From assembly GCF_033568475.1 (NCBI RefSeq), contig NW_027331831.1, forward strand, positions 15,872,001 through 15,936,000: 64,000 nucleotides of DNA, written 5' to 3'. Origin of the DNA: Henckelia pumila. Taxonomy: Eukaryota; Streptophyta; Magnoliopsida; Lamiales; Gesneriaceae. Below the pieces are notes generated by a model that saw only the letters and a program-made list of their open reading frames with translations, was not told the origin of the DNA and did not search any database. This document shows positions 4,258 through 48,515 of this stretch, piece after piece. How positions within the stretch are numbered: the first letter of the stretch is position 1; each line of letters starts with the position of its first letter. The translations under genes and the position numbers were made by a program.

Positions 4258-4500
4258 TGTTGAAAATATATTATATTATATTATATTAGAATTGTTGAAA
4301 ATTGAGTTGTATTATTTTGAAAATTAGTGTGTGATGATGTAGATGATGATGATTTAATTTTTGGACTAATCTTTCATTGAGATCTATAAATAGGTCTCTC
4401 CATTTGTGTAGAAAAACACAATTTGAGAGAATAAATTTAAAGTGTGGAGTTTGAGAATATTTTGAGTTTTTGAGTTTAATAAATTTTATTTTTCACAACA
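4258..4500 (+). repeat. Copia 5' LTR
   Basis: 243 bp, TG...CA termini, matching the 3' LTR at 32398-32644 closely except for a rearranged AT-rich first 60 bp. A TATAAATA promoter motif lies at 4385-4392 inside AGATCTATAAATAGGTCTCT, also conserved in the 3' copy. Confidence 0.93.
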
Positions 4501-5203: not shown

Positions 5204-6592
5204 TGACCGACTAAATCGGTTTGATAAAAATCTACTGGCAAGCGCACCAAGTCAAGTAATAGTAAAGTGGACAGAGAGTCCAAGTATCGATCCCACAAGG
5301 ACTGCAGTCAATTCTCAAGAATTAATTATTTTACTTAATCTAGACAAAATAATAGAAGGATTTTGAATTAAATAAAATAAGAATATAAAATAAAAACTGA
5401 TTAAGAAATAAGAATAAAAATAACTGAAGATAAAAATAATCAAGACAAAGACAACCAAGACACACGTAGGTACCGAACAAATTTTGTAACATGTAGTCGA
5501 TTCAGGACTCAGATTTAATCTTAATTCACGGGAATTCTCCTAATTTGTTCAAAGGACTATTTCTAGAACAATCAAACCTATTCAAATATTGATGAACTAA
5601 TCTTTCGTAATTCTAATCAAATTTGAATGCATTAAATATTTGTAAAAATTCAGTTTACACCCAAACCGCACACTGAAACCGAATTCTATTTCTAGTCGGT
5701 TTTACAATATGTTAATTATCAGAGTGATCAAAATCAAAACCTCCTCTGTCGATTTGGAATTGATTAACATGCAAGCAAACAGTTGATCAGACTATTCACA
5801 AGACAAATATAAATCTGACAATCAATAAAATAAAATCAACTCTAAAAAAAATCCCAAACAAACATCCAAGTTTTCTACATAAATTTGTTCGGCCCAATCA
5901 CGCCGTCTTGGTTGAAAATAAACTACTCAATAATTAAAAACAATAATTCAAAAATAAAAATAAAAAGAAGAAAAGAAAGAAGAAATCTTCTCTCCCAAGC
6001 CTTGTAGCCATCTCCTCTTGCGTTGTCTGCGCTCTCGAGCTTCCGAAACCCTCAAAAATATGTTATATCTTCTATATATATGGTCCGAAACGCCTACCAG
6101 TTAATTTCCTCTCAAAATAAGGATTTTTCGGCACACGTATGACCCCCGAACACGCGCGCGCGCGCGGCATAGGCCTCGCACGAGCGCAGCACATAAAAAC
6201 AGAAGGCTGTACGTCGGACTCGCGCGTGCGCGAGCTTGATTCTCGCGCGCGCAGTACAAAAAATCTGCGCCGAGCTATAATTTTCAAAAATTCATATCTC
6301 AAGATCTAGCCGTCGGATTGAGCTGAAATTTTGACAGCAGCTTCAAAACATCTTTAACTTTAATTTGAACGGTGGAGATTGGATTTCAATGTCTCTAAAA
6401 TTAAATATTATTTTTCGATCAAGGCTGCTCCGTAATTCACTCTTCAAAAATTCATTTTCCTACAAAATTAACCCAAGGAGTGAAATACACACACATGCAC
6501 TAAAACACATAAAAACACATAAAAATAATATAAATGCACACAAAATAGACATAAAAATAACATGAAATAATGCATACAAAATGCACTTATCA
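5204..6592 (-). repeat. LARD 3' LTR (left copy)
   Basis: 1389 bp, plus-strand ends TGACCG...TTATCA, i.e. TGATAAGTGC...CGGTCA on the element's own strand. It carries a CG-alternating tract around 6153-6260. It differs from the right copy by scattered substitutions, for example in the CG tract and at the terminus. Confidence 0.93.
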
Positions 6593-7844
6593 ACACTCCC
6601 ATACTTAAACCTTGCTCGCTCGAGCAAGACATGCAAAAACAACATGCAAACAACAACATAAGTGAGGACAAGTCATGAATGTGCACAGCCTCTGAGAAGT
6701 TCAATCACCAACAAAAAATCACAGACATGCTCTCAACTTTTTATAATACACCTTCGGTTTAACGTGAACGTATGTGTGTGAAATGTCATTCCAGTTTCAT
6801 ACAACTTAGACCGAATTCGTCTCAAATCTGCTTAGCGACCTATGACAAGTCAATGCAAGTTTCACTCTTCAAGTGCTCATTCCTTCCAACGACCTCTAGA
6901 CTAAACCCACCTCCCTTGAGATAATGAATTACACACCTCCGGATTTTGCACCCGGTATTGCATTAGCCCCAATAATTACCCGCTGACTTAGCTATAACTG
7001 GCTAGGATACGAAAAATCATTCTATTTTTTCTTTCTAATCCTCTCGTCTATAGCCCGGATGGAGCATCAATCCCATTTTACCCGCATACTTAGCCTTAAA
7101 TTTAATTTTTTTTTTTTTTTTAGGATTTTAATCCTTTCAAGGCCCGGATGGAATTGTATATAAATTTTTTCTAGGTGCGCCCAAGATCATAAGTGTAAAC
7201 TAGAGCCTCATCAAAATTCATAGAACACAATCAAAATCCACAAACCATCTATTGCCGTGCAATGGTCAAACAGACAGAAACTTCATCAAACTTTTCGCTA
7301 CAATTCACTGGTCTAACATTAGTGCTTAAAAATATTCACGGTTCAACCTACAGTTTCTCATGTCCAGTCAAGAGCAAATTTTTCTCAAAAATCCATTTTC
7401 AAATAAACTTCATCATCATTGGCTATTATGATTCATCCTACTCATGCAAGACAACACAAACGAACTTAAACAAACAATATGAAAACAAACACGAAACATG
7501 ACAGATGCAACACAAACAATGCAAATAAACTATTCTACCCCCCCATACTTATCCAAAGCATTGCCCTCAATGCTTCAGAACAATGAACAGAATGCAGACA
7601 AACACACAATGCAATGAAAAACAAAAACACAAAGAAAACAAAAATAACACTCCCCTGGTTTTCGATTCATTCTCTTTCTTCTTGAAAGAATCCTTCGGGA
7701 CGGTATCAGCATTCTAGAATATCGGCAGGCACAACCAACTGGCATAGGAAAGAAACAAAAATAAAAACAAAACAAAACAAAAACAAAATAAAAATAAAAA
7801 GCAAAAACACTGGGTTGCCTCCCAGTCAGCGCTAAATTTATAGT
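6593..7844 (-). other. LARD 3' non-coding interior
   Basis: No convincing protein. Next to the left LTR the element strand reads AGTATGGGAGTGT, a weak polypurine tract. A stronger purine run, AAGTATGGGGGGGTAGAAT, lies internally near 7540. Just 3' of the gag-like stop, the motif GGGAGGCAACCC (about 7813-7824) matches a stretch I recall from Athila-like elements. A T-rich run occurs at 7108-7123. Confidence 0.6.
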
Positions 7845-8756
7845 CTATAGCCCGACTATGCAGAAGCCACCATCAAAGAGCGGCTGCCGCCTATAGTAAG
7901 AATCATACGATTCTACGTATGGGTTTTGAATTTCTTCGCCCTCAAGCTTGGCGTGATATTTGCATTTTAAGCTTGTCGGTCCAACAGTACTCGGCATGAA
8001 ATTTTTCCTTTGGAAAGAGACTCTGATTCTAGGCTGAAGCTCAAAGAGGATGTAATACTGTGGAGGTGGCGTCAATGGCAAAAAAGTATCTTCTAACGGT
8101 GTACATAAAACGACCACTGACGAGGTAAAATCTCTCTCCTTGTATAGTTCTTCCTCCTCCACTATTACGTTTGGCTCTTCTTCACAAGAAGATTCCTCAA
8201 AAATGATTTCTTCATGCTCTGGCTCAGTTACTTCACTCTCTTGATAGATCTCAAAAATTGGTTCTCTAAGAAGCGCAATCTGTTCATCCAAAAGACTCAT
8301 GCGGCTTTCTAAGAATTTATTTGACTCTGTCTGCTGTCGCACAAGATTTTCCAACTGAGCCACATAATCTTCGGAACGCCCTATGCACTTTTCTTGATGC
8401 TCCGGTGGCTGGTTCGCAAAATTTTTAGAGTTGATATCTGGAGGATATTGGTGACTCCAACCCTGTAGTGAAGGATCACAATGCCAATGGTAGTCAAAAT
8501 CTGCCATATCATTTAACAATTGCATCGCACTGTCTTCATCTCTTCTAAACAATTTACTGCCAGTGGCCAACGTTCCATAATCCACCCAACTTCTTGTAAT
8601 CTCATCCAAACCACCATAAAAAAATTGAGTGAGGGTGTAGCTCGAAAATTTATGGCATCGAAATCTGTTCGCCAAATCATTGAATCTCCCCCAAACAGCA
8701 TAGAATGGCTCCAAGTATTGCTGGCCAAATCTTGTGAACACCTGATGGTGATCCAT
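7845..8756 (-). CDS. Gag-like protein of the LARD element
   Basis: 303 residues from the ATG at 8756 (MDHHQVFTRF). The open frame extends further upstream into the LTR, but homology-like sequence begins here. Residues about 20-75 (FNDLANRFRCHKF ... LTQFFYGGLDEITRSWVDYG) resemble the retrotransposon gag domain of Athila/Tat elements. Residues about 115-145 form a likely coiled coil (DYVAQLENLVRQQTESNKFL), followed by a very acidic stretch at about 165-200 rich in Glu. I see no zinc knuckle. This is the only copy with its natural C-terminus. In the array copies the end is replaced by sequence from the TCF25-like intron. Confidence 0.7.
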   Translation of the reverse strand: MDHHQVFTRFGQQYLEPFYAVWGRFNDLANRFRCHKFSSYTLTQFFYGGLDEITRSWVDYGTLATGSKLFRRDEDSAMQLLNDMADFDYHWHCDPSLQGWSHQYPPDINSKNFANQPPEHQEKCIGRSEDYVAQLENLVRQQTESNKFLESRMSLLDEQIALLREPIFEIYQESEVTEPEHEEIIFEESSCEEEPNVIVEEEELYKERDFTSSVVVLCTPLEDTFLPLTPPPQYYILFELQPRIRVSFQRKNFMPSTVGPTSLKCKYHAKLEGEEIQNPYVESYDSYYRRQPLFDGGFCIVGL

Positions 8757-8898
8757 CTCCAAGTACCTCACAAGCAAAAGAAAAGAAAAAAAATCAAAAT
8801 TAAAATAAAATAAAAAAAACGAAAAGAACGAAAAGATAGAAATAAAAAAAAAATGTCTAGCCTCAAGCAAATAATCTATCCTAATATCAACTAAACAG

Positions 8899-8916
8899 TC
8901 CCCGGAAACGGCGCCA
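8899..8916 (-). other. LARD primer-binding site
   Basis: TGGCGCCGTTTCCGGGGA on the minus strand, 6 bp inside the right-hand (5') LTR. This is one base from the GTTGCC form I recall as common in Athila/Tat elements. The sixth array copy has that GTTGCC form (26010-26027). Confidence 0.8.
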
Positions 8917-8922
8917 AAAACT

Positions 8923-10311
8923 TGACCGGCTAAATCGATTTGATAAAAATCTACTGGCAAGCGCACCAGGTCAAGTAATAGTAAAGTGGACAGAGAGTCC
9001 AAGTATCGATCCCACAGGGACTGCAATCAATTCTCAAGAATTAATTATTTTACTTAATCTAGACAAAATAATAGAAGGATTTTGAATTAAATAAAATAAG
9101 AATATAAAATAAAAACTGATTAAGAAATAAGAATAAAAATAACTGAAGATAAAAATAATCAAGACAAAGACAACCAAGACACACGTAGGTACCGAACAAA
9201 TTTTGTAACATGTAGTCGATTCAGGACTCAGATTTAATCTTAATTCACGGGAATTCTCCTAATTTGTTCAAAGGACTATTTCTAGAACAATCAAACCTAT
9301 TCAAATATTGATGAACTAATCTTTCGTAATTCTAATCAAATTTGAATGCATTAAATATTTGTAAAAATTCAGTTTACACCCAAACCGCACACTGAAACCG
9401 AATTCTATTTCTAGTCGGTTTTACAATATGTTAATTATCAGAGTGATCAAAATCAAAACCTCCTCTGTCGATTTGGAATTGATTAACATGCAAGCAAACA
9501 GTTGATCAGACTATTCACAAGACAAATATAAATCTGACAATCAATAAAATAAAATCAACTCTAAAAAAAATCCCAAACAAACATCCAAGTTTTCTACATA
9601 AATTTGTTCGGCCCAATCACGCCGTCTTGGTTGAAAATAAACTACTCAATAATTAAAAACAATAATTCAAAAATAAAAATAAAAAGAAGAAAAAAAAAGA
9701 AGAAATCTTCTCTCCCAAGCCTTGTAGCCACCTCCTCTTGCGTTGTCTGCGCTCTCGAGCTTCCGAAACCCTCAAAAATATGTTATATCTTCTATATATA
9801 TGGTCCGAAACGCCTACCAGTTAATTTCCTCTCAAAATAAGGATTTTTCGGAACACATATGGCCCCCAACACGCGCGCGCGCGCGGCATAGGCCTCGCAC
9901 GCGCGCAGCACATAAAAACAGAAGGCTGTACGTCGGACTCGCGCGCGCGCGAGCTTGATTCTCGCGCGCGCAGTACAAAAAATCTGCGCCGAGCTATAAT
10001 TTTCAAAAATTCATATATCGAGATCTAGCCGTCGGATTGAGCTGAAATTTTGACAGCAGCTTCAAAACATCTTTAAATTTAATCTGAACAGTGAAGATTG
10101 GATTTCAATATTTCTAAAATTAAATATGATTTTTCGATCAAGGCTGCTCCGTAATTCACTCTTCAAAAATCCATTTTCCTACAAAATTAACCCAAAGAGT
10201 GAAATACACACACATGCACTAAAACACATAAAAACACATAAAAATAATATGAATGCACACAAAATAAACATAAAAATAACATGAAATAATGCATACAAAA
10301 TGCACTTATCA
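8923..10311 (-). repeat. LARD 5' LTR (right copy)
   Basis: 1389 bp, element-strand start TGATAAGTGC, end CCGGTCA. It includes alternating CG tracts (about 9871-9886 and 9937-9972). Five further copies of this LTR occur in the tandem array, because the amplified unit includes it. Confidence 0.93.
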
Positions 10312-10471
10312 ATCATCATGCTCACGAGTTTTGTACTCACCAGCGATTTTCCACCACATGCTTTTTCTCTATTTGTACACTTACTTGTACTCATCGTTTA
10401 TCCATTATTTTGTATTGTCATATTAATAGAAATTAACTAATAAAATCCATTGTTATTTTTCTAGTACCACC

Positions 10472-11134
10472 ATGTCAAACTTGGCAAAGCTTGAATTCGT
10501 TGCACTCGATATCACTGAAAAAAATTATATGCCATGGACTCTTGATGTTGAGATGCATCTTGAGTCATTGGGTCTAAGTGAAAGCATTAAAGAAAATAAT
10601 ATATCAACCTCACAAGATAAAGCAAAAACTATGATTTTCTTGCGCCGACATCTTGATGAAGGGTTGAAATGTAAGTATCTCACAGAAAAAGACCCAATAA
10701 CTTTATGGAAAGGGCTGAAAGAAAGATTTGAGCATATAAGGGAAGTGATACTTCCGACCGCCCGTGATGAATGTAATACGTTGAGATTCCAAGACTTTAA
10801 AAAAGTCAGTGATTATAATTCTGCGATGTATCGAATAGTCTCGCAATTAAAATTCTGTGGACTTGAAGTCACAGAGATGGAAATGCTTGAGAAAACATTT
10901 TTCACTTTTCACGCATCGAATATAACTCTACAACAACAGTATAAAGTGCGTGGATTTTTGAGATATTCCGAACTAATCGCATGTCTTCTTGGCGGAAAAG
11001 AACAACGAATTGTTAGGAGAGTCTCAGTCACTGTGTCATCCACCAGAGTCCAGACGGGAATAAATCATGAAATGGTTTCAAGAAATATATACCACCATTA
11101 TTCGGGAGCAATAACCTACATCGAATATACATAA
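10472..11134 (+). pseudogene. Truncated copia gag, copy 1, with intron-encoded tail
   Basis: Begins MSNLAKLEFVALDITEKNY, the N-terminal gag domain of copia. It follows CTAG|TACCACCATG, which looks like a splice acceptor and start context. A 2-bp deletion shifts the frame near codon 172, and the remaining tail to codon 220 is read from the captured TCF25-like intron. It lacks the Arg-Gly region and zinc knuckle. Confidence 0.85.
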
Positions 11135-11447
11135 ACGACATCTTACGGCCAACCAATTATGCTAGAAATTGGAAAGCGAAAATGCCACATGATATTCAAT
11201 CGTAAGGGATGTGAGAGAAAGCAATTTCCAACTCAATAAGTGATTTTCTGCTTGAGTGCCACTAAGCAATTTCCAATTCAAGAATTGTTTTTTTTTGTTT
11301 TTGTTTTGGAGCTACAAGTAGTTCCTACTATGTTGAAGGCCCAAGACTCACTAATCAGCCACATGCTAAATTCTGACATCAGCTACGCCAGGTACTCACG
11401 TTTCACCTGACAGATCAGTCTTATGGTCCCTCCTCCAAGGTTTTAAG

Positions 11448-12176
11448 TCATAAATCCACAGGAATGTTCATTAGTGTTACCCACGTAGCACGAAATATAG
11501 CTAAAATCTCTTCTAACGGTGTACATAAAACGACCACTGACGAGGTAAAATCTCTCTCCTTGTATAGTTCTTCCTCCTCCACTATTACGTTTGGCTCTTC
11601 TTCACAAGAAGATTCCTCAAAAATGATTTCTTCATGCTCTGGCTCAGTTACTTCACTCTCTTGATAGATCTCAAAAATTGGTTCTCTAAGAAGCGCAATC
11701 TGTTCATCCAAAAGACTCATGCGGCTTTCTAAGAATTTATTTGACTCTGTCTGCTGTCGCACAAGATTTTCCAACTGAGCCACATAATCTTCGGAACGCC
11801 CTATGCACTTTTCTTGATGCTCCGGTGGCTGGTTCGCAAAATTTTTAGAGTTGATATCTGGAGGATATTGGTGACTCCAACCCTGCAGTGAAGGATCACA
11901 ATGCCAATGGTAGTCAAAATCTGCCATATCATTTAACAAGTGCATCGCACTGTCTTCATCTCTTCTAAACAATTTACTGCCAGTGGCCAACGTTCCATAA
12001 TCCACCCAACTTCTTGTAATCTCATCCAAACCACCATAAAAAAATTGAGTGAGGGTGTAGCTCGAAAATTTATGGCATCGAAATCTGTTCGCCAAATCAT
12101 TGAATCTCCCCCAAACAGCATAGAATGGCTCCAAGTATTGCTGGCCAAATCTTGTGAACACCTGATGATGATCCAT
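11448..12176 (-). pseudogene. LARD gag-like ORF with intron-encoded C-terminus, unit 2
   Basis: 242 codons from MDHHQ. The gag-like, coiled-coil and acidic regions are intact up to ...VVLCTPLE. The original last 80 or so residues are then replaced by about 20 residues (EILAIFRATWVTLMNIPVDL) read from the captured intron segment on the minus strand. Not expected to be functional. Confidence 0.75.
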
Positions 12177-14933
12177 CTCCAAGTACCTCACAAGCAAAAG
12201 AAAAGAAAAAAAATCAAAATTAAAATAAAATAAAAAAAACGAAAAGAACGAAAAGATAGAAATAAAAAAAAAATGTCTAGCCTCAAGCAAATAATCTATC
12301 CTAATATCAACTAAACAGTCCCCGGAAACGGCGCCAAAAACTTGACCGGCTAAATCGATTTGATAAAAATCTACTGGCAAGCGCACCAGGTCAAGTAATA
12401 GTAAAGTGGACAGAGAGTCCAAGTATCGATCCCACAGGGACTGCAATCAATTCTCAAGAATTAATTATTTTACTTAATCTAGACAAAATAATAGAAGGAT
12501 TTTGAATTAAATAAAATAAGAATATAAAATAAAAACTGATTAAGAAATAAGAATAAAAATAACTGAAGATAAAAATAATCAAGACAAAGACAACCAAGAC
12601 ACACGTAGGTACCGAACAAATTTTGTAACATGTAGTCGATTCAGGACTCAGATTTAATCTTAATTCACGGGAATTCTCCTAATTTGTTCAAAGGACTATT
12701 TCTAGAACAATCAAACCTATTCAAATATTGATGAACTAATCTTTCGTAATTCTAATCAAATTTGAATGCATTAAATATTTGTAAAAATTCAGTTTACACC
12801 CAAACCGCACACTGAAACCGAATTCTATTTCTAGTCGGTTTTACAATATGTTAATTATCAGAGTGATCAAAATCAAAACCTCCTCTGTCGATTTGGAATT
12901 GATTAACATGCAAGCAAACAGTTGATCAGACTATTCACAAGACAAATATAAATCTGACAATCAATAAAATAAAATCAACTCTAAAAAAAATCCCAAACAA
13001 ACATCCAAGTTTTCTACATAAATTTGTTCGGCCCAATCACGCCGTCTTGGTTGAAAATAAACTACTCAATAATTAAAAACAATAATTCAAAAATAAAAAT
13101 AAAAAGAAGAAAAAAAAAGAAGAAATCTTCTCTCCCAAGCCTTGTAGCCACCTCCTCTTGCGTTGTCTGCGCTCTCGAGCTTCCGAAACCCTCAAAAATA
13201 TGTTATATCTTCTATATATATGGTCCGAAACGCCTACCAGTTAATTTCCTCTCAAAATAAGGATTTTTCGGAACACATATGGCCCCCCAACACGCGCGCG
13301 CGCGCGGCATAGGCCTCGCACGCGCGCAGCACATAAAAACAGAAGGCTGTACGTCGGACTCGCGCGCGCGCGAGCTTGATTCTCGCGCGCGCGCAGTACA
13401 AAAAATCTGCGCCGAGCTATAATTTTCAAAAATTCATATATCGAGATCTAGCCGTCGGATTGAGCTGAAATTTTGACAGCAGCTTCAAAACATCTTTAAA
13501 TTTAATCTGAACAGTGAAGATTGGATTTCAATATTTCTAAAATTAAATATGATTTTTCGATCAAGGCTGCTCCGTAATTCACTCTTCAAAAATCCATTTT
13601 CCTACAAAATTAACCCAAAGAGTGAAATACACACACATGCACTAAAACACATAAAAACACATAAAAATAATATGAATGCACACAAAATAAACATAAAAAT
13701 AACATGAAATAATGCATACAAAATGCACTTAATCATCATGCTCACGAGTTTTGTACTCACCAGCGATTTTCCACCACATGCTTTTTCTCTATTTGTACAC
13801 TTACTTGTACTCATCGTTTATCCATTATTTTGTATTGTCATATTAATAGAAATTAACTAATAAAATCCATTGTTATTTTTCTAGTACCACCATGTCAAAC
13901 TTGGCAAAGCTTGAATTCGTTGCACTCGATATCACTGAAAAAAATTATATGCCATGGACTCTTGATGTTGAGATGCATCTTGAGTCATTGGGTCTAAGTG
14001 AAAGCATTAAAGAAAATAATATATCAACCTCACAAGATAAAGCAAAAACTATGATTTTCTTGCGCCGACATCTTGATGAAGGGTTGAAATGTAAGTATCT
14101 CACAGAAAAAGACCCAATAACTTTATGGAAAGGGCTGAAAGAAAGATTTGAGCATATAAGGGAAGTGATACTTCCGACCGCCCGTGATGAATGTAATACG
14201 TTGAGATTCCAAGACTTTAAAAAAGTCAGTGATTATAATTCTGCGATGTATCGAATAGTCTCGCAATTAAAATTCTGTGGACTTGAAGTCACAGAGATGG
14301 AAATGCTTGAGAAAACATTTTTCACTTTTCACGCATCGAATATAACTCTACAACAACAGTATAAAGTGCGTGGATTTTTGAGATATTCCGAACTAATCGC
14401 ATGTCTTCTTGTGGCGGAAAAGAACAACGAATTGTTAGGAGAGTCTCAGTCACTGTGTCATCCACCAGAGTCCAGACGGGAATAAATCATGAAATGGTTT
14501 CAAGAAATATATACCACCATTATTCGGGAGCAATAACCTACATCGAATATACATAAACGACATCTTACGGCCAACCAATTATGCTAGAAATTGGAAAGCG
14601 AAAATGCCACATGATATTCAATCGTAAGGGATGTGAGAGAAAGCAATTTCCAACTCAATAAGTGATTTTCTGCTTGAGTGCCACTAAGCAATTTCCAATT
14701 CAAGAATTGTTTTTTTTTGTTTTTGTTTTGGAGCTACAAGTAGTTCCTACTATGTTGAAGGCCCAAGACTCACTAATCAGCCACATGCTAAATTCTGACA
14801 TCAGCTACGCCAGGTACTCACGTTTCACCTGACAGATCAGTCTTATGGTCCCTCCTCCAAGGTTTTAAGTCATAAATCCACAGGAATGTTCATTAGTGTT
14901 ACCCACGTAGCACGAAATATAGCTAAAATCTCT
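11512..14933 (+). repeat. Array unit 2
   Basis: LARD LTR copy 12343 to about 13731, lacking the terminal TCA (CACTTAATCATC instead of CACTTATCAATCATC). Gag at 13892; intron filler 14435-14933. Confidence 0.95.
13892..14485 (+). pseudogene. Truncated copia gag, copy 2
   Basis: 197 codons: 182 gag residues ending ...NNELL, then GESQSLCHPPESRRE encoded by the captured intron, then a stop. The Arg-Gly region and CCHC knuckle are missing. Confidence 0.88.
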
Positions 14934-15598
14934 TCTAACGGTGTACATAAAACGACCACTGACGAGGTAAAATCTCTCTCCTTGTATAGTTCTTCCTCCT
15001 CCACTATTACGTTTGGCTCTTCTTCACAAGAAGATTCCTCAAAAATGATTTCTTCATTCTCTGGCTCAGTTACTTCACTCTCTTGATAGATCTCAAAAAT
15101 TGGTTCTCTAAGAAGCGCAATCTGTTCATCCAAAAGACTCATGCGGCTTTCTAAGAATTTATTTGACTCTGTCTGCTGTCGCACAAGATTTTCCAACTGA
15201 GCCACATAATCTTCGGAACGCCCTATGCACTTTTCTTGATGCTCCGGTGGCTGGTTCGCAAAATTTTTAGAGTTGATATCTGGAGGATATTGGTGACTCC
15301 AACCCTGCAGTGAAGGATCACAATGCCAATGGTAGTCAAAATCTGCCATATCATTTAACAAGTGCATCGCACTGTCTTCATCTCTTCTAAACAATTTACT
15401 GCCAGTGGCCAACGTTCCATAATCCACCCAACTTCTTGTAATCTCATCCAAACCACCATAAAAAAATTGAGTGAGGGTGTAGCTCGAAAATTTATGGCAT
15501 CGAAATCTGTTCGCCAAATCATTGAATCTCCCCCAAACAGCATAGAATGGCTCCAAGTATTGCTGGCCAAATCTTGTGAACACCTGATGATGATCCAT
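14870..15598 (-). pseudogene. LARD gag-like ORF with intron-encoded C-terminus, unit 3
   Basis: Same 242-codon chimera as in unit 2, with one His-to-Asn change in the acidic region (EPENEE). Confidence 0.75.
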
Positions 15599-18358
15599 CT
15601 CCAAGTACCTCACAAGCAAAAGAAAAGAAAAAAAATCAAAATTAAAATAAAATAAAAAAAACGAAAAGAACGAAAAGATAGAAATAAAAAAAAAATGTCT
15701 AGCCTCAAGCAAATAATCTATCCTAATATCAACTAAACAGTCCCCGGAAACGGCGCCAAAAACTTGACCGGCTAAATCGATTTGATAAAAATCTACTGGC
15801 AAGCGCACCAGGTCAAGTAATAGTAAAGTGGACAGAGAGTCCAAGTATCGATCCCACAGGGACTGCAGTCAATTCTCAAGAATTAATTATTTTACTTAAT
15901 CTAGACAAAATAATAGAAGGATTTTGAATTAAATAAAATAAGAATATAAAATAAAAACTGATTAAGAAATAAGAATAAAAATAACTGAAGATAAAAATAA
16001 TCAAGACAAAGACAACCAAGACACACGTAGGTACCGAACAAATTTTGTAACATGTAGTCGATTCAGGACTCAGATTTAATCTTAATTCACGGGAATTCTC
16101 CTAATTTGTTCAAAGGACTATTTCTAGAACAATCAAACCTATTCAAATATTGATGAACTAATCTTTCGTAATTCTAATCAAATTTGAATGCATTAAATAT
16201 TTGTAAAAATTCAGTTTACACCCAAACCGCACACTGAAACCGAATTCTATTTCTAGTCGGTTTTACAATATGTTAATTATCAGAGTGATCAAAATCAAAA
16301 CCTCCTCTGTCGATTTGGAATTGATTAACATGCAAGCAAACAGTTGATCAGACTATTCACAAGACAAATATAAATCTGACAATCAATAAAATAAAATCAA
16401 CTCTAAAAAAAATCCCAAACAAACATCCAAGTTTTCTACATAAATTTGTTCGGCCCAATCACGTCGTCTTGGTTGAAAATAAACTACTCAATAATTAAAA
16501 ACAATAATTCAAAAATAAAAATAAAAAGAAGAAAAAAAAAGAAGAAATCTTCTCTCCCAAGCCTTGTAGCCACCTCCTCTTGCGTTGTCTGCGCTCTCGA
16601 GCTTCCGAAACCCTCAAAAATATGTTATATCTTCTTATATATGGTCCGAAACGCCTACCAGTTAATTTCCTCTCAAAATAAGGATTTTTCGGAACACATA
16701 TGGCCCCCCAACACGCGCGCGCGCGCGGCATAGGCCTCGCACGCGCGCAGCACATAAAAACAGAAGGCTGTACGTCGGACTCGCGCGCGCGCGAGCTTGA
16801 TTCTCGCGCGCGCGCAGTACAAAAAATCTGCGCCGAGCTATAATTTTCAAAAATTCATATATCGAGATCTAGCCGTCGGATTGAGCTGAAATTTTGACAG
16901 CAGCTTCAAAACATCTTTAAATTTAATCTGAACAGTGAAGATTGGATTTCAATATTTCTAAAATTAAATATGATTTTTCGATCAAGGCTGCTCCGTAATT
17001 CACTCTTCAAAAATCCATTTTCCTACAAAATTAACCCAAAGAGTGAAATACACACACATGCACTAAAACACATAAAAACACATAAAAATAATATGAATGC
17101 ACACAAAATAAACATAAAAATAACATGAAATAATGCATACAAAATGCACTTATCAATCATCATGCTCACGAGTTTTGTACTCACCAGCGATTTTCCACCA
17201 CATGCTTTTTCTCTATTTGTACACTTACTTGTACTCATCGTTTATCCATTATTTTGTATTGTCATATTAATAGAAATTAACTAATAAAATCCATTGTTAT
17301 TTTTCTAGTACCACCATGTCAAACTTGGCAAAGCTTGAATTCGTTGCACTCGATATCACTGAAAAAAATTATATGCCATGGACTCTTGATGTTGAGATGC
17401 ATCTTGAGTCATTGGGTCTAAGTGAAAGCATTAAAGAAAATAATATATCAACCTCACAAGATAAAGCAAAAACTATGATTTTCTTGCGCCGACATCTTGA
17501 TGAAGGGTTGAAATGTAAGTATCTCACAGAAAAAGACCCAATAACTTTATGGAAAGGGCTGAAAGAAAGATTTGAGCATATAAGGGAAGTGATACTTCCG
17601 ACCGCCCGTGATAAATGTAATACGTTGAGATTCCAAGACTTTAAAAAAGTCAGTGATTATAATTCTGCGATGTATCGAATAGTCTCGCAATTAAAATTCT
17701 GTGGACTTGAAGTCACAGAGATGGAAATGCTTGAGAAAACATTTTTCACTTTTCACGCATCGAATATAACTCTACAACAACAGTATAAAGTGCGTGGATT
17801 TTTGAGATATTCCGAACTAATCGCATGTCTTCTTGTGGCGGAAAAGAACAACGAATTGTTAGGAGAGTCTCAGTCACTGTGTCATCCACCAGAGTCCAGA
17901 CGGGAATAAATCATGAAATGGTTTCAAGAAATATATACCACCATTATTCGGGAGCAATAACCTACATCGAATATACATAAACGACATCTTACGGCCAACC
18001 AATTATGCTAGAAATTGGAAAGCGAAAATGCCACATGATATTCAATCGTAAGGGATGTGAGAGAAAGCAATTTCCAACTCAATAAGTGATTTTCTGCTTG
18101 AGTGCCACTAAGCAATTTCCAATTCAAGAATTGTTTTTTTTTTGTTTTTGTTTTGGAGCTACAAGTAGTTCCTACTATGTTGAAGGCCCAAGACTCACTA
18201 ATCAGCCACATGCTAAATTCTGACATCAGCTACGCCAGGTACTCACGTTTCACCTGACAGATCAGTCTTATGGTCCCTCCTCCAAGGTTTTAAGTCATAA
18301 ATCCACAGGAATGTTCATTAGTGTTACCCACGTAGCACGAAATATAGCTAAAATCTCT
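14934..18358 (+). repeat. Array unit 3
   Basis: LARD LTR copy 15765-17155. Gag at 17316 with a Glu-to-Lys change (GATAAATGT). Intron filler 17859-18358 has one extra T in its T run. Confidence 0.95.
17316..17909 (+). pseudogene. Truncated copia gag, copy 3
   Basis: Same 182 + 15 residue chimera as copy 2, with one Glu-to-Lys substitution near residue 100 (ARDKCN). Confidence 0.88.
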
Positions 18359-19023
18359 TCTAATGGTGTACATAAAACGACCACTGACGAGGTAAAATCT
18401 CTCTCCTTGTATAGTTCTTCCTCCTCCACTATTACGTTTGGCTCTTCTTCACAAGAAGATTCCTCAAAAATGATTTCTTCATGCTCTGGCTCAGTTACTT
18501 CACTCTCTTGATAGATCTCAAAAATTGGTTCTCTAAGAAGCGCAATCTGTTCATCCAAAAGACTCATGCGGCTTTCTAAGAATTTATTTGACTCTGTCTG
18601 CTGTCGCACAAGATTTTCCAACTGAGCCACATAATCTTCGGAACGCCCTATGCACTTTTCTTGATGCTCCGGTGGCTGGTTCGCAAAATTTTTAGAGTTT
18701 ATATCTGGAGGATATTGGTGACTCCAACCCTGCAGTGAAGGATCACAATGCCAATGGTAGTCAAAATCTGCCATATCATTTAACAAGTGCATCGCACTGT
18801 CTTCATCTCTTCTAAACAATTTACTGCCAGTGGCCAACGTTCCATAATCCACCCAACTTCTTGTAATCTCATCCAAACCACCATAAAAAAATTGAGTGAG
18901 GGTGTAGCTCGAAAATTTATGGCATCGAAATCTGTTCGCCAAATCATTGAATCTCCCCCAAACAGCATAGAATGGCTCCAAGTATTGCTGGCCAAATCTT
19001 GTGAACACCTGATGATGATCCAT
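18295..19023 (-). pseudogene. LARD gag-like ORF with intron-encoded C-terminus, unit 4
   Basis: Same 242-codon chimera as in unit 2. Upstream the open frame is shorter, because the leader differs (AAAACAAC for ATATCAAC near 19151). Confidence 0.75.
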
Positions 19024-21777
19024 CTCCAAGTACCTCACAAGCAAAAGAAAAGAAAAAAAATCAAAATTAAAATAAAATAAAAAAAACGAAAAGAACGAAA
19101 AGATAGAAATAAAAAAAAAATGTCTAGCCTCAAGCAAATAATCTATCCTAAAAACAACTAAACAGTCCCGGAAACGGCGCCAAAAACTTGACCGGCTAAA
19201 TCGATTTGATAAAAATCTACTGGCAAGCGCACCAGGTCAAGTAATAGTAAAGTGGACAGAGAGTCCAAGTATCGATCCCACAGGGACTGCAATCAATTCT
19301 CAAGAATTAATTATTTTACTTAATCTAGACAAAATAATAGAAGGATTTTGAATTAAATAAAATAAGAATATAAAATAAAAACTGATTAAGAAATAAGAAT
19401 AAAAATAACTGAAGATAAAAATAATCAAGACAAAGACAACCAAGACACACGTAGGTACCGAACAAATTTTGTAACATGTAGTCGATTCAGGACTCAGATT
19501 TAATCTTAATTCACGGGAATTCTCCTAATTTGTTCAAAGGACTATTTCTAGAACAATCAAACCTATTCAAATATTGATGAACTAATCTTTCGTAATTCTA
19601 ATCAAATTTGAATGCATTAAATATTTGTAAAAATTCAGTTTACACCCAAACCGCACACTGAAACCGAATTCTATTTCTAGTCGGTTTTACAATATGTTAA
19701 TTATCAGAGTGATCAAAATCAAAACCTCCTCTGTCGATTTGGAATTGATTAACATGCAAGCAAACAGTTGATCAGACTATTCACAAGACAAATATAAATC
19801 TGACAATCAATAAAATAAATCAACTCTAAAAAAAATCCCAAACAAACATCCAAGTTTTCTACATAAATTTGTTCGGCCCAATCACGCCGTCTTGGTTGAA
19901 AATAAACTACTCAATAATTAAAAACAATAATTCAAAAATAAAAATAAAAAGAAGAAAAAAAAAAGAATAAATCTTCTCTCCCAAGCCTTGTAGCCACCTC
20001 CTCTTGCGTTGTCTGCGCTCTCGAGCTTCCGAAACCCTCAAAAATATGTTATATCTTCTATATATATGGTCCGAAACGCCTACCAGTTAATTTCCTCTCA
20101 AAATAAGGATTTTTCGGAACACATATGGCCCCCAACACGCGCGCGCGCGGCATAGGCCTCGCACGCGCGCAGCACATAAAAACAGAAGGCTGTACGTCGG
20201 ACTCGCGCGCGCGCGAGCTTGATTCTCGCGCGCGCGCAGTACAAAAAATCTGCCGAGCTATAATTTTCAAAAATTCATATATCGAGATCTAGCCGTCGGA
20301 TTGAGCTGAAATTTTGACAGCAGCTTCAAAACATCTTTAAATTTAATCTGAACAGTGAAGATTGGATTTCAATATTTCTAAAATTAAATATGATTTTTCG
20401 ATCAAGGCTGCTCCGTAATTCACTCTTCAAAAATCCATTTTCCTACAAAATTAACCCAAAGAGTGAAATACACACACATGCACTAAAACACATAAAAACA
20501 CATAAAAATAATATGAATGCACACAAAATAAACATAAAAATAACATGAAATAATGCATACAAAATGCACTTATCAATCATCATGCTCACGAGTTTTGTAC
20601 TCACCAGCGATTTTCCACCACATGCTTTTTCTCTATTTGTACACTTACTTGTACTCATCGTTTATCCATTATTTTGTATTGTCATATTAATAGAAATTAA
20701 CTAATAAAATCCATTGTTATTTTTCTAGTACCACCATGTCAAACTTGGCAAAGCTTGAATTCGTTGCACTCGATATCACTGAAAAAAATTATATGCCATG
20801 GACTCTTGATGTTGAGATGCATCTTGAGTCATTGGGTCTAAGTGAAAGCATTAAAGAAAATAATATATCAACCTCACAAGATAAAGCAAAAACTATGATT
20901 TTCTTGCGCCGACATCTTGATGAAGGGTTGAAATGTAAGTATCTCACAGAAAAAGACCCAATAACTTTATGGAAAGGGCTGAAAGAAAGATTTGAGCATA
21001 TAAGGGAAGTGATACTTCCGACCGCCCGTGATGAATGTAATACGTTGAGATTCCAAGACTTTAAAAAAGTCAGTGATTATAATTCTGCGATGTATCGAAT
21101 AGTCTCGCAATTAAAATTCTGTGGACTTGAAGTCACAGAGATGGAAATGCTTGAGAAAACATTTTTCACTTTTCACGCATCGAATATAACTCTACAACAA
21201 CAGTATAAAGTGCGTGGATTTTTGAGATATTCCGAACTAATCGCATGTCTTCTTGTGGCGGAAAAGAACAACGAATTGTTAGGAGAGTCTCAGTCACTGT
21301 GTCATCCACCAGAGTCCAGACGGGAATAAATCATGAAATGGTTTCAAGAAATATATACCACCATTATTCGGGAGCAATAACCTACATCGAATATACATAA
21401 ACGACATCTTACGGCCAACCAATTATGCTAGAAATTGGAAAGCGAAAATGCCACATGATATTCAATCGTAAGGGATGTGAGAGAAAGCAATTTCCAACTC
21501 AATAAGTGATTTTCTGCTTGAGTGCCACTAAGCAATTTCCAATTCAAGAATTGTTTTTTTTTGTTTTTGTTTTGGAGCTACAAGTAGTTCCTACTATGTT
21601 GAAGGCCCAAGACTCACTAATCAGCCACATGCTAAATTCTGACATCAGCTACGCCAGGTACTCACGTTTCACCTGACAGATCAGTCTTATGGTCCCTCCT
21701 CCAAGGTTTTAAGTCATAAATCCACAGGAATGTTCATTAGTGTTACCCACGTAGCACGAAATATAGCTAAAATCTCT
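18359..21777 (+). repeat. Array unit 4
   Basis: LARD LTR copy 19189-20575 with a shortened CG tract and a lost C in the primer-binding site region (CAGTCCCGG). Gag at 20736; intron filler 21279-21777. Confidence 0.95.
20736..21329 (+). pseudogene. Truncated copia gag, copy 4
   Basis: Same 182 + 15 residue chimera as copy 2, with no amino-acid change that I can see. Confidence 0.88.
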
Positions 21778-22442
21778 TCTAACGGTGTACATAAAACGAC
21801 CACTGACGAGGTAAAATCTCTCTCCTTGTATAGTTCTTCCTCCTCCACTATTACGTTTGGCTCTTCTTCACAAGAAGATTCCTCAAAAATGATTTCTTCA
21901 TGCTCTGGCTCAGTTACTTCACTCTCTTGATAGATCTCAAAAATTGGTTCTCTAAGAAGCGCAATCTGTTCATCCAAAAGACTCATGCGGCTTTCTAAGA
22001 ATTTATTTGACTCTGTCTGCTGTCGCACAAGATTTTCCAACTGAGCCACATAATCTTCGGAACGCCCTATGCACTTTTCTTGATGCTCCGGTGGCTGGTT
22101 CGCAAAATTTTTAGAGTTGATATCTGGAGGATATTGGTGACTCCAACCCTGCAGTGAAGGATCACAATGCCAATGGTAGTCAAAATCTGCCATATCATTT
22201 AACAAGTGCATCGCACTGTCTTCATCTCTTCTAAACAATTTACTGCCAGTGGCCAACGTTCCATAATCCACCCAACTTCTTGTAATCTCATCCAAACCAC
22301 CATAAAAAAATTGAGTGAGGGTGTAGCTCGAAAATTTATGGCATCGAAATCTGTTCGCCAAATCATTGAATCTCCCCCAAACAGCATAGAATGGCTCCAA
22401 GTATTGCTGGCCAAATCTTGTGAACACCTGATGATGATCCAT
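21714..22442 (-). pseudogene. LARD gag-like ORF with intron-encoded C-terminus, unit 5
   Basis: Same 242-codon chimera as in unit 2, with no protein difference that I noticed. Confidence 0.75.
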
Positions 22443-25202
22443 CTCCAAGTACCTCACAAGCAAAAGAAAAGAAAAAAAATCAAAATTAAAATAAAATAAA
22501 AAAAACGAAAAGAACGAAAAGATAGAAATAAAAAAAAAATGTCTAGCCTCAAGCAAATAATCTATCCTAATATCAACTAAACAGTCCCCGGAAACGGCGC
22601 CAAAAACTTGACCGGCTAAATCGATTTGATAAAAATCTACTGGCAAGCGCACCAGGTCAAGTAATAGTAAAGTGGACAGAGAGTCCAAGTATCGATCCCA
22701 CAGGGACTGCAGTCAATTCTCAAGAATTAATTATTTTACTTAATCTAGACAAAATAATAGAAGGATTTTGAATTAAATAAAATAAGAATATAAAATAAAA
22801 ACTGATTAAGAAATAAGAATAAAAATAACTGAAGATAAAAATAATCAAGACAAAGACAACCAAGACACACGTAGGTACCGAACAAATTTTGTAACATGTA
22901 GTCGATTCAGGACTCAGATTTAATCTTAATTCACGGGAATTCTCCTAATTTGTTCAAAGGACTATTTCTAGAACAATCAAACCTATTCAAATATTGATGA
23001 ACTAATCTTTCGTAATTCTAATCAAATTTGAATGCATTAAATATTTGTAAAAATTCAGTTTACACCCAAACCGCACACTGAAACCGAATTCTATTTCTAG
23101 TCGGTTTTACAATATGTTAATTATCAGAGTGATCAAAATCAAAACCTCCTCTGTCGATTTGGAATTGATTAACATGCAAGCAAACAGTTGATCAGACTAT
23201 TCACAAGACAAATATAAATCTGACAATCAATAAAATAAAATCAACTCTAAAAAAAATCCCAAACAAACATCCAAGTTTTCTACATAAATTTGTTCGGCCC
23301 AATCACGCCGTCTTGGTTGAAAATAAACTACTCAATAATTAAAAACAATAATTCAAAAATAAAAATAAAAAGAAGAAAAAAAAAGAAGAAATCTTCTCTC
23401 CCAAGCCTTGTAGCCACCTCCTCTTGCGTTGTCTGCGCTCTCGAGCTTCCGAAACCCTCAAAAATATGTTATATCTTCTATATATATGGTCCGAAACGCC
23501 TACCAGTTAATTTCCTCTCAAAATAAGGATTTTTCGGAACACATATGGCCCCCCAACACGCGCGCGCGCGCGGCATAGGCCTCGCACGCGCGCAGCACAT
23601 AAAAACAGAAGGCTGTACGTCGGACTCGCGCGCGCGCGAGCTTGATTCTCGCGCGCGCGCAGTACAAAAAATCTGCGCCGAGCTATAATTTTCAAAAATT
23701 CATATATCGAGATCTAGCCGTCGGATTGAGCTGAAATTTTGACAGCAGCTTCAAAACATCTTTAAATTTAATCTGAACAGTGAAGATTGGATTTCAATAT
23801 TTCTAAAATTAAATATGATTTTTCGATCAAGGCTGCTCCGTAATTCACTCTTCAAAAATCCATTTTCCTACAAAATTAACCCAAAGAGTGAAATACACAC
23901 ACATGCACTAAAACACATAAAAACACATAAAAATAATATGAATGCACACAAAATAAACATAAAAATAACATGAAATAATGCATACAAAATGCACTTATCA
24001 ATCATCATGCTCACGAGTTTTGTACTCACCAGCGATTTTCCACCACATGCTTTTTCTCTATTTGTACACTTACTTGTACTCATCGTTTATCCATTATTTT
24101 GTATTGTCATATTAATAGAAATTAACTAATAAAATCCATTGTTATTTTTCTAGTACCACCATGTCAAACTTGGCAAAGCTTGAATTCGTTGCACTCGATA
24201 TCACTGAAAAAAATTATATGCCATGGACTCTTGATGTTGAGATGCATCTTGAGTCATTGGGTCTAAGTGAAAGCATTAAAGAAAATAATATATCAACCTC
24301 ACAAGATAAAGCAAAAACTATGATTTTCTTGCGCCGACATCTTGATGAAGGGTTGAAATGTAAGTATCTCACAGAAAAAGACCCAATAACTTTATGGAAA
24401 GGGCTGAAAGAAAGATTTGAGCATATAAGGGAAGTGATACTTCCGACCGCCCGTGATGAATGTAATACGTTGAGATTCCAAGACTTTAAAAAAGTCAGTG
24501 ATTATAATTCTGCGATGTATCGAATAGTCTCGCAATTAAAATTCTGTGGACTTGAAGTCACAGAGATGGAAATGCTTGAGAAAACATTTTTCACTTTTCA
24601 CGCATCGAATATAACTCTACAACAACAGTATAAAGTGCGTGGATTTTTGAGATATTCCGAACTAATCGCATGTCTTCTTGTGGCGGAAAAGAACAACGAA
24701 TTGTTAGGAGAGTCTCAGTCACTGTGTCATCCACCAGAGTCCAGACGGGAATAAATCATGAAATGGTTTCAAGAAATATATACCACCATTATTCGGGAGC
24801 AATAACCTACATCGAATATACATAAACGACATCTTACGGCCAACCAATTATGCTAGAAATTGGAAAGCGAAAATGCCACATGATATTCAATCGTAAGGGA
24901 TGTGAGAGAAAGCAATTTCCAACTCAATAAGTGATTTTCTGCTTGAGTGCCACTAAGCAATTTCCAATTCAAGAATTGTTTTTTTTTGTTTTTGTTTTGG
25001 AGCTACAAGTAGTTCCTACTATGTTGAAGGCCCAAGACTCACTAATCAGCCACATGCTAAATTCTGACATCAGCTACGCCAGGTACTCACGTTTCACCTG
25101 ACAGATCAGTCTTATGGTCCCTCCTCCAAGGTTTTAAGTCATAAATCCACAGGAATGTTCATTAGTGTTACCCACGTAGCACGAAATATAGCTAAAATCT
25201 CT
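21778..25202 (+). repeat. Array unit 5
   Basis: LARD LTR copy 22609-24000. Gag at 24161; intron filler 24704-25202. It is very close in sequence to unit 3. Confidence 0.95.
24161..24754 (+). pseudogene. Truncated copia gag, copy 5
   Basis: Same 182 + 15 residue chimera as copies 2 and 4. It is the last copy with the intron-encoded tail. Confidence 0.88.
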
Positions 25203-25867
25203 TCTAACGGTGTACATAAAACGACCACTGACGAGGTAAAATCTCTCTCCTTGTATAGTTCTTCCTCCTCCACTATTACGTTTGGCTCTTCTTCACAAGA
25301 AGATTCCTCAAAAATGATTTCTTCATGCTCTGGCTCAGTTACTTCACTCTCTTGATAGATCTCAGAAATTGGTTCTCTAAGAAGCGCAATCTGTTCATCC
25401 AAAAGACTCATGCGGCTTTCTAAGAATTTATTTGACTCTGTCTGCTGTCGCACAAGATTTTCCAACTGAGCCACATAATCTTCGGAACGCCCTATGCACT
25501 TTTCTTGATGCTCCGGTGGCTGGTTCGCAAAATTTTTAGAGTTGATATCTGGAGGATATTGGTGACTCCAACCCTGCAGTGAAGGATCACAATGCCAATG
25601 GTAGTCAAAATCTGCCATATCATTTAACAAGTGCATCGCACTGTCTTCATCTCTTCTAAACAATTTACTGCCAGTGGCCAACGTTCCATAATCCACCCAA
25701 CTTCTTGTAATCTCATCCAAACCACCATAAAAAAATTGAGTGAGGGTGTAGCTCGAAAATTTATGGCATCGAAATCTGTTCGCCAAATCATTGAATCTCC
25801 CCCAAACAGCATAGAATGGCTCCAAGTATTGCTGGCCAAATCTTGTGAACACCTGATGATGATCCAT
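25139..25867 (-). pseudogene. LARD gag-like ORF with intron-encoded C-terminus, unit 6
   Basis: Same 242-codon chimera, with a Phe-to-Ser change (REPISEIYQ). Its C-terminal codons lie in the filler of the unit 5/6 junction. Confidence 0.75.
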
Positions 25868-28130
25868 CTCCAAGTACCTCACAAGCAAAAGAAAAGAAAA
25901 AAAATCAAAATTAAAATAAAATAAAAAAAACGAAAAGAACGAAAAGATAGAAATAAAAAAAAAATGTCTAGCCTCAAGCAAATAATCTATCCTAATATCA
26001 ACTAAACAGTCCCCGGCAACGGCGCCAAAAACTTTACCGGCTAAATCGATTTGATAAAAATCTACTGGCAAGCGCACCAGGTCAAGTAATAGTAAAGTGG
26101 ACAGAGAGTCCAAGTATCGATCCCACAGGGACTGCAGTCAATTCTCAAGAATTAATTATTTTACTTAATCTAGACAAAATAATAGAAGGATTTTGAATTA
26201 AATAAAATAAGAATATAAAATAAAAACTGATTAAGAAATAAGAATAAAAATAACTGAAGATAAAAATAATCAAGACAAAGACAACCAAGACACACGTAGG
26301 TACCGAACAAATTTTGTAACATGTAGTCGATTCAGGACTCAGATTTAATCTTAATTCACGGGAATTCTCCTAATTTGTTCAAAGGACTATTTCTAGAACA
26401 ATCAAACCTATTCAAATATTGATGAACTAATCTTTCGTAATTCTAATCAAATTTGAATGCATTAAATATTTGTAAAAATTCAGTTTACACCCAAACCGCA
26501 CACTGAAACCGAATTCTATTTCTAGTCGGTTTTACAATATGTTAATTATCAGAGTGATCAAAATCAAAACCTCCTCTGTCGATTTGGAATTGATTAACAT
26601 GCAAGCAAACAGTTGATCAGACTATTCACAAGACAAATATAAATCTGACAATCAATAAAATAAAATCAACTCTAAAAAAAATCCCAAACAAACATCCAAG
26701 TTTTCTACATAAATTTGTTCGGCCCAATCACGCCGTCTTGGTTGAAAATAAACTACTCAATAATTAAAAACAATAATTCAAAAATAAAAATAAAAAGAAG
26801 AAAAAAAAAGAAGAAATCTTCTCTCCCAAGCCTTGTAGCCACCTCCTCTTGCGTTGTCTGCGCTCTCGAGCTTCCGAAACCCTCAAAAATATGTTATATC
26901 TTCTATATATGGTCCGAAACGCCTACCAGTTAATTTCCTCTCAAAATAAGGATTTTTCGGAACACATATGGCCCCCCAACACGCGCGCGCGCGCGGCATA
27001 GGCCTCGCACGCGCGCAGCACATAAAAACAGAAGGCTGTACGTCGGACTCGCGCGCGCGCGAGCTTGATTCTCGCGCGCGCGCAGTACAAAAAATCTGCG
27101 CCGAGCTATAATTTTCAAAAATTCATATATCGAGATCTAGCCGTCGGATTGAGCTGAAATTTTGACAGCAGCTTCAAAACATCTTTAAATTTAATCTGAA
27201 CAGTGAAGATTGGATTTCAATATTTCTAAAATTAAATATGATTTTTCGATCAAGGCTGCTCCGTAATTCACTCTTCAAAAATCCATTTTCCTACAAAATT
27301 AACCCAAAGAGTGAAATACACACACATGCACTAAAACACATAAAAACACATAAAAATAATATGAATGCACACAAAATAAACATAAAAATAACATGAAATA
27401 ATGCATACAAAATGCACTTATCAATCATCATGCTCACGAGTTTTGTACTCACCAGCGATTTTCCACCACATGCTTTTTCTCTATTTGTACACTTACTTGT
27501 ACTCATCGTTTATCCATTATTTTGTATTGTCATATTAATAGAAATTAACTAATAAAATCCATTGTTATTTTTCTAGTACCACCATGTCAAACTTGGCAAA
27601 GCTTGAATTCGTTGCACTCGATATCACTGAAAAAAATTATATGCCATGGACTCTTGATGTTGAGATGCATCTTGAGTCATTGGGTCTAAGTGAAAGCATT
27701 AAAGAAAATAATATATCAACCTCACAAGATAAAGCAAAAACTATGATTTTCTTGCGCCGACATCTTGATGAAGGGTTGAAATGTAAGTATCTCACAGAAA
27801 AAGACCCAATAACTTTATGGAAAGGGCTGAAAGAAAGATTTGAGCATATAAGGGAATTGATACTTCCGACCGCCCGTGATGAATGTAATACGTTGAGATT
27901 CCAAGACTTTAAAAAAGTCAGTGATTATAATTCTGCGATGTATCGAATAGTCTCGCAATTAAAATTCTGTGGACTTGAAGTCACAGAGATGGAAATGCTT
28001 GAGAAAACATTTTTCACTTTTCACGCATCGAATATAACTCTACAACAACAGTATAAAGTGCGTGGATTTTTGAGATATTCCGAACTAATCGCATGTCTTC
28101 TTGTGGCGGAAAAGAACAACGAATTGTTAG
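25203..28130 (+). repeat. Array unit 6 (distal, without intron filler)
   Basis: LARD LTR copy 26034-27423, with the first bases mutated (TTACCGG) and the primer-binding site in the GTTGCC form. Gag at 27584 passes the position where the other copies switch to intron (TTAG at 28127-28130) and continues as intact gag. Confidence 0.95.
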
Positions 28131-28624
28131 TAAGAAATCATCAATCCCGACCCACTGGATCAACGACATTTCCTGAAGCAAATGTCGTAATGAAAAATAA
28201 AAACCAAAATCAAAGGAATAGACCAGATTTTGGTCGTGGACGAGGTCGAGGACGTGGGCGTAGACGTGGACGTAGAAATGACCGTGGTCGTGGACGCGGT
28301 CGTGGATATGAAAATAATCGAGATAGTTATTTCAGTAACTCATCTCAAAAGAGCGTCACGCACCACCCACTAAAAAGACAGCATGAAAACATGAGTGAAA
28401 ATGAAAATCACTCAAAAAAAACCGAGAGTGTTTGTTATAGATGTGGCACTCCGGGACATTGGTCACGAACTTGTCAAGCCCCCGAGCACCTTTGTAAGCT
28501 CTATAAAGAATCGATAAAGGGGAAAGGAAAAGAGACCAATTTTGTTGAAAATAGTGACCATTTAATTGGTTCAACTAGTTTCAGTGTTGCAGATTTTTTG
28601 AATGATTTCGAAGACATTGATTAA
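27584..28624 (+). CDS. Copia Gag, full length (sixth copy)
   Basis: 346 residues, the only intact gag of the element. Residues 1-182 are the capsid-type domain shared with the truncated copies. Residues about 205-250 are an Arg/Gly-rich basic stretch (GRGRGRGRGRRRGRR), likely to bind nucleic acid. A CCHC zinc knuckle follows (CYRCGTPGHWSRTC, about residue 285-298). Gag would package the element RNA into cytoplasmic virus-like particles. It ends with a stop 125 bp before the pol start, and pol is in another frame, so the two are not one polyprotein here. One substitution from the other copies (Val to Leu in HIRELIL). Confidence 0.92.
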   Translation: MSNLAKLEFVALDITEKNYMPWTLDVEMHLESLGLSESIKENNISTSQDKAKTMIFLRRHLDEGLKCKYLTEKDPITLWKGLKERFEHIRELILPTARDECNTLRFQDFKKVSDYNSAMYRIVSQLKFCGLEVTEMEMLEKTFFTFHASNITLQQQYKVRGFLRYSELIACLLVAEKNNELLVRNHQSRPTGSTTFPEANVVMKNKNQNQRNRPDFGRGRGRGRGRRRGRRNDRGRGRGRGYENNRDSYFSNSSQKSVTHHPLKRQHENMSENENHSKKTESVCYRCGTPGHWSRTCQAPEHLCKLYKESIKGKGKETNFVENSDHLIGSTSFSVADFLNDFEDID

Positions 28625-28749
28625 AAGATTGGTGGGACTAGATTGTAACAAATTTTTATTTTTCATGCATTTTTGTATTATAAAGCATGTTATATTTTAC
28701 ATTTGTATTGTACTTAATTTTTCTTTATTACATTTTTGTGAAGTTTGAT

Positions 28750-32385: not shown

Positions 32386-32644
32386 CACAAGGGGGAGTGT
32401 TGAAAATATATTATTTTATTATTGTTGAATATTGAATGTTGAATATTGAGTTGTAAAATATGGAAAATTAGTGTGTGATGATGTAGATGATGATGTTTTA
32501 ATTTTTGGACTAATCTCCCATTGAGATCTATAAATAGGTCTCTCCATTTGTGTAGAAAAACACAATTTGAGAGAATAAATTTAAAGTGTGGAGTTTGAGA
32601 ATATTTTGAGTTTTTGAGTTTAATAAATTTTACTTTTCACAACA
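32386..32644 (+). repeat. Copia polypurine tract and 3' LTR
   Basis: The purine run AAGGGGGAG (32389-32397) directly precedes the LTR (32398-32644, 247 bp), as needed for plus-strand priming. The TATAAATA motif is at 32529-32536. It ends CACAACA followed by the target duplication AAAAT. Confidence 0.92.
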
Positions 32645-48510: not shown

Positions 48511-48515
48511 TTAAA

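Follow-up and report, generated by a model that had tools for sequence, protein, structure and literature searches.

How a single retrotransposon locus came to hold six long tandem units, each joined to the next by a piece of a neighbouring gene's intron, is the question raised by this stretch of DNA (the window, 64,000 nucleotides in all). Comparison of the window with itself revealed near-identical units (99.4–99.7% identity) arranged head to tail over 20 kb, from 8092 to 28130, with a period of 3419–3425 bp; the first-pass annotation had reported six units here, and its coordinates agree with ours to the base. Positions 8082-24707 aligned with 11503-28130 at 99.63% identity over 16,644 columns, and the four longer shifts gave 99.42–99.67%. 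With 99.6% identity across 16.6 kb, chance repetition is ruled out as the source of the array. The units measure 2,924–2,930 bp without the bridging sequence and are joined by five bridges, each 499 or 500 bp long, with start-to-start spacings along the array of 3420, 3422, 3425, 3419 and 3425 bp (Table 1). A tandem-repeat finder returned no row for 8092-28130, the longest period it reported being 500. Elsewhere in the window, a 219-bp satellite-like array (37733-40724) contains 6.4 copies at 94%, followed by a second block, and an internal pair of ~370–380 bp (39133-39503 and 39572-39952) that is 96% identical over aligned sites.

Table 1. Positions, within the window, of the array units, the bridges between them and the sequences from which both derive.
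Feature	Position	Strand	Details
Copia LTR retrotransposon holding the whole structure	4258-32644	+	LTRs 4258-4500 and 32398-32644; PPT-like AAGGGGGAG ahead of 3' LTR
Antisense LARD-like element	5204-10311	-	Length including unit 1, 5.1 kb; LTRs 5204-6592 and 8923-10311
Donor of bridge	855-1353		Interior of first intron (240-1676) of minus-strand gene; 499 bp, 99.6–99.8% identity to the five bridges
Unit 1	8092-11016		LARD-like internal end, LTR, copia leader, first gag part
Bridge 1 (intron copy)	11013-11511		TTAG in common with gag, TCT with LARD
Unit 2	11512-14438
Bridge 2	14435-14933
Unit 3	14934-17862
Bridge 3	17859-18358		500 bp, one extra T
Unit 4	18359-21282		Most one-unit substitutions, 7 of 17
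Bridge 4	21279-21777
Unit 5	21778-24707
Bridge 5	24704-25202
Unit 6	25203-28130		Continues into remainder of copia gag-pol
gag ORF of unit 6	27584-28624	+	346 aa; sole gag ORF of six uncut by a bridge
Copia pol	28687-32232	+	Three ORFs: 28687-30024, 30034-30912, 30916-32232

The whole structure lies inside a copia element of 28,387 bp, in keeping with the 28-kb locus of the first-pass annotation. Its LTRs (243 and 247 bp) are 92.6% identical over 243 aligned sites, and the target-site duplication (TSD) AAAAT flanks it on both sides. The Pfam zinc knuckle, pre-integrase, rve and RVT_2 domains scored above cut-off, and the gag match (E 0.00046) fell under the Pfam curated cut-off. Paired LTRs with a TSD, a PPT-like tract, gag, and an integrase ahead of RVT_2 place the element in Ty1/copia, with an interrupted pol. 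The top-ranked match of its gag comes from Henckelia pumila (87% identity across 85% of the query), followed by a protein with 62% identity. A gypsy element also occurs in the window (46442-55547), with gag, protease and RT domains and ~2.07-kb LTRs that are 98.7% identical over aligned sites; a 136-bp direct repeat at 93% (45928-46063 and 59298-59433) flanks it.

A second, antisense element sits in the copia leader, between two copies of the TSD ATCAT. Its LTRs of 1,389 bp are 98.2% identical over 1,388 sites, and a PBS-like sequence, GTTTTTGGCGCCGTTTCCGGGG, lies beside the right (5') LTR. LARDs are over 4 kb in size; with paired LTRs and a TSD, a length of 5.1 kb, a PBS-like sequence and no gag-pol, this element is LARD-like. 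It contains one ORF of at least 200 aa (7845-9026), for which no Pfam family was found. This minus-strand ORF runs to 303 aa in unit 1 and stops inside the bridge in units 2–6, at 242 aa from the same methionine. The array places LARD LTRs in series with the PBS-like sequence, and the new LTR-internal-LTR cassettes would need a PPT as well as a PBS beside their flanking LTRs in order to retrotranspose. By eye, no purine tract lies directly adjacent to the LTR end in the array, the run AGAGAAAAAG lying ~50 bases away, and a clean purine tract is likewise missing beside the 3' LTR of the element itself.

From left to right, every unit consists of the internal end of the LARD-like element, one of its LTRs, the copia leader and the first part of gag; the copia share is the last 160 bp of the leader plus the gag start (545 bp in unit 1). 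The first-pass annotation had described a fusion of three unrelated sequences. LARD-like, copia and intron parts are indeed all present, but because the LARD-like element is nested in copia with its own TSD, these two form one continuous stretch. Only two non-adjacent stretches were joined, for which two new joints suffice, a simpler account than a three-way fusion.

The second stretch is the intron. All five internal junctions carry the same filler, as had been claimed: a 499–500-bp copy of 855-1353 in the interior of the first intron of the neighbouring gene, some 10 kb to the left (10,158 bp from the start of the source to the first bridge). Four bridges are 499 bp long and one is 500 bp, lengths that include the 4-bp overlap with gag. 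One substitution, common to all five, separates them from the source (position 1231, T in the source and C in the copies), and there are no substitutions among them, where ~2.4 would be expected at the rate of the units. The donor gene, modelled from its sequence alone, lies on the minus strand; its ATG is at 1832, and its first intron runs from a GT donor at 1676 to the final G of an AG acceptor, at 240. We take it to be TCF25-like from its N-terminal pattern; this name, also used in the first-pass annotation, is unproven and found no confirmation in two protein searches. A search with the 131-aa peptide encoded by exons 1 and 2, of which exon 2 is truncated at the window edge, found no match among PDB chains at E values up to 1, and none at E 0.001 among 17 candidates, which were limited to proteins of ~72–229 aa. 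At the other end of the window, a minus-strand gene fragment resembling glutamate-1-semialdehyde aminomutase (60807-61862; Aminotran_3) has a 98% match to a 476-aa protein, followed by one from Rehmannia glutinosa at 93%. Together with the gag match, these would point to a host in Lamiales, perhaps Gesneriaceae.

In a motif count, the gag/bridge joint occurred five times, uninterrupted gag once, and uninterrupted LARD sequence at the left breakpoint once. The bridge/LARD joint occurred four times as an exact motif, and the fifth copy, before unit 4, carries a C-to-T change close to the joint, on the LARD side. Microhomology is present at both, with 4 bp (TTAG) between gag and intron and 3 bp (TCT) between intron and LARD. 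Among 100,000 random joints drawn from the same regions, 2.1% had at least 4 bp, 6.6% had at least 3 bp, and the sum reached at least 7 in 0.58%; at either joint taken alone, the microhomology is modest. Neither stretch has been inverted, and the two are at most ~10.2 kb apart. The five bridges, alike save for one extra T, and their identical joints point to one founding event. The earlier proposal of an intron used as bridging DNA, a single set of founding joints and later amplification is supported. The joints, the kept orientation, the short distance and the donor still in place agree with a template switch over a short range or with joining by microhomology. The locus shows the features of a duplication by template switching, namely a re-replicated host segment, a distant copied segment at the joint, a donor left in place, and microhomology.

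We consider it likely that this is a nascent, retrotransposon-derived array of long units, founded by one local template-switching repair event. The proposed course begins with the insertion of the copia element upstream of the minus-strand gene, ~2.4 kb from its start codon, and continues with the antisense insertion of the LARD-like element into the copia leader, both steps being shown by their TSDs. Within copia gag, a DNA end or a replication fork may then have paired through TTAG with the intron ~10 kb away; 499 bp would have been copied before a return through TCT to the interior of the LARD-like element, where copying went onward. To judge from the joints, the product would have been a 2.9-kb tandem duplication that included a templated insertion of 0.5 kb. 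With 2.9 kb of homology between the copies, the number of units could then have risen to six through unequal exchange or, alternatively, through a circle re-entering by homologous recombination. The unbroken intron suggests that copying ran from intron to array. The donor's left boundary (855) falls within a small perfect inverted repeat seen by eye, CTCCT-CTT-AGGAG (849-861), which may have helped the template switch there. No function is required for the array.

Variation among the six units bears on the age and growth of the array. An alignment of 2,931 columns contained 36 variable ones, including 18 substitution sites, 17 of which set a single unit apart. These one-unit substitutions are unevenly distributed over units 1–6 (3, 0, 3, 7, 0 and 4; chi-square p 0.03); the three in unit 1 fall outside the LTR and are not polarisable. 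The remaining site, 9026, is shared among units: from unit 1 to unit 6 its states are A A G A G G, the outside (left) LTR having G, a mixture of both end types of the kind that exchange between units would give. At 9962, in a CG-rich tract in which recurrence is possible, a CG indel sets unit 1 and the outside LTR apart from units 2–6, which may have a later common ancestor instead of belonging to a six-unit star. Unit 2 also lacks three bases at the LARD/copia boundary (unit 1 positions 10308-10310). When growth was simulated as gradual, at least 17 one-unit sites of 18 arose with probability 0.096 (Kingman) or 0.076 (Yule); thus neither a burst nor stepwise growth is demonstrated, and a one-step burst is not established.

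The array is probably recent, given that 17 of 18 substitutions single out one unit. Identities of 92.6% between the copia LTRs and 98.2% between the LARD LTRs, together with a one-unit divergence of 0.097%, fit the proposed order of events. Substitution rates are 1.3e-8 to 7e-9 per site per year, which would put the LARD insertion at roughly 0.7–1.3 million years ago and the array, if the one-unit changes are real mutations, at roughly 75,000–140,000 years.

Other origins must be weighed against the same data. The LARD/gag stretch (2.9 kb) and the intron piece (0.5 kb) might have been joined in one extrachromosomal circle, copied by rolling-circle replication and returned to their own locus by homologous recombination. 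Such a circle predicts the head-to-tail structure, the equal joints and the scarcity of shared variation, but it requires re-entry at the parental site and left no direct sign of itself, and the pattern at 9026, although only one site, is easier to obtain by exchange between units. We regard this route, which the data do not separate from template switching, as possible but rather unlikely. That the chimeric unit is a dispersed element family, with the array as one of its loci, or that the 499 bp are a dispersed repeat, is very improbable: both ends of the array continue straight into the parental sequences, which also rules out the array as a freshly inserted product of retrotransposition, and beyond array and source the 499-bp bridge has only short, weak matches within the 64-kb window. 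The bridge has no inverted ends by eye and its joints differ between the two sides, and its identity as a small transposon was rejected.

An assembly artefact, either a chimeric molecule or an assembly-graph cycle walked several times, would account for the dominance of one-unit changes, which polishing noise would also give, and for their uneven spread over the units. The kinds of change point in the same direction in one comparison. One-unit changes comprise 7 transitions and 10 transversions (7:10), against 20:5 for the LARD LTRs, 6:12 for the copia LTRs and 16:11 for the gypsy LTRs (46442-48510 and 53478-55547). With the LARD LTRs counted in an alignment of more copies (19:6), the difference gave Fisher p 0.03, in a contrast picked after looking, and with the shared site added (8:10) p rose to 0.055. 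However, against the three LTR pairs pooled (42:28) it was not significant (p 0.18), and a transversion excess is not established. Nor was there a significant strand bias among changes of the G/T type, which a count by eye put at 6 to 1 (p 0.125). Some one-unit changes may be consensus errors. Yet site 9026 groups three of the six units with the state found outside the array, several indels distinguish the units, and both joints recur five times, all of which make an artefact an improbable source of the array as a whole.

The array has side effects. Bridges spare gag only in the last unit. In units 1–5, gag begins at 10472, 13892, 17316, 20736 and 24161, and reading continues into the intron copy; the ORFs of units 2–5 are 197 aa long, with the final ~15 residues from the intron. 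The ORF of unit 1 changes frame just before the joint and stops after 220 aa; at 10989, just ahead of this joint, unit 1 lacks two bases that the other five units have. Five copies of the intron now lie in a transposable-element array beside their gene. It is conceivable, though a long shot, that small RNAs from a silenced six-unit array, including the five copies of part of intron 1 (99.6–99.8% identical), direct methylation to that intron in trans. If so, activity of the host gene would be tied to the copy number of the array, and unit gain or loss by recombination would change the state of the gene.

As head-to-tail copies of a unit derived from an LTR retrotransposon, the units form a retrotransposon-derived tandem repeat, a class for which a review table lists examples born from LTR retrotransposons (PMC9659126). 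Satellites extend over tens to hundreds of kb, and with six units in 20 kb the present locus is a nascent array, not a satellite. The first-pass annotation knew of no described family with this architecture, which goes too far in view of Sobo and CRM1TR (PMC3648361) and of cycles of templated insertions (PMC7025897). The most similar construction is that of the Solanum bulbocastanum satellite Sobo (Tek et al. 2005), whose long monomer (4.7 kb) is described as similar to retrotransposon LTRs, to a satellite and to genomic DNA; in that account, however, Sobo spans ~360 kb of a pericentromere, whereas our six units still lie within their parent elements and beside their donor (PMC3648361). The maize repeats CRM1TR and CRM4TR also derive from an LTR and the adjoining untranslated region of a retrotransposon, and their amplification began at least ~4 and ~1 My ago, respectively; as described there, their monomers are ~0.7–1.4 kb long and wholly CR-derived, without a host-gene bridge (PMC3648361). 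In the Ogre-derived satellites of Lathyrus sativus, array expansion also begins inside an LTR retrotransposon, but the founders given are short tandem repeats already in the element, downstream of gag-pol (PMC7004042).

For the founding step, the closest counterpart comes from cancer genomes, in which cycles of templated insertions are a defined class of rearrangement: replication of a host segment is repeated and a templated piece comes to lie at the joint, as at this locus. Templated insertions are grouped there with tandem duplications and linked to template switching, and a small template (<1 kb) joined to one of any size is one of their two size patterns (PMC7025897). In contrast to our array, which lies in cis, has six units and is found in a genome assembly, those cycles are reported as somatic, with segments typically on different chromosomes (PMC7025897). 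Tandem duplications of more than 1 kb, up to 4.9 kb, are reported in rice (PMC7971508). Among the matches listed (titles and abstract openings of open-licence papers), none described a retrotransposon array bridged by a host intron. Each step of the origin we propose, by local template switching and later amplification, is familiar; the state of the locus is unusually complete and early, with parent elements and donor still adjoining a young array. The origin of new satellite repeats has been called elusive (PMC3648361). Here the parent elements with their TSDs, the donor intron, the joints and six little-altered units all lie within 33 kb, and the founding step and early growth of such an array can be read directly.
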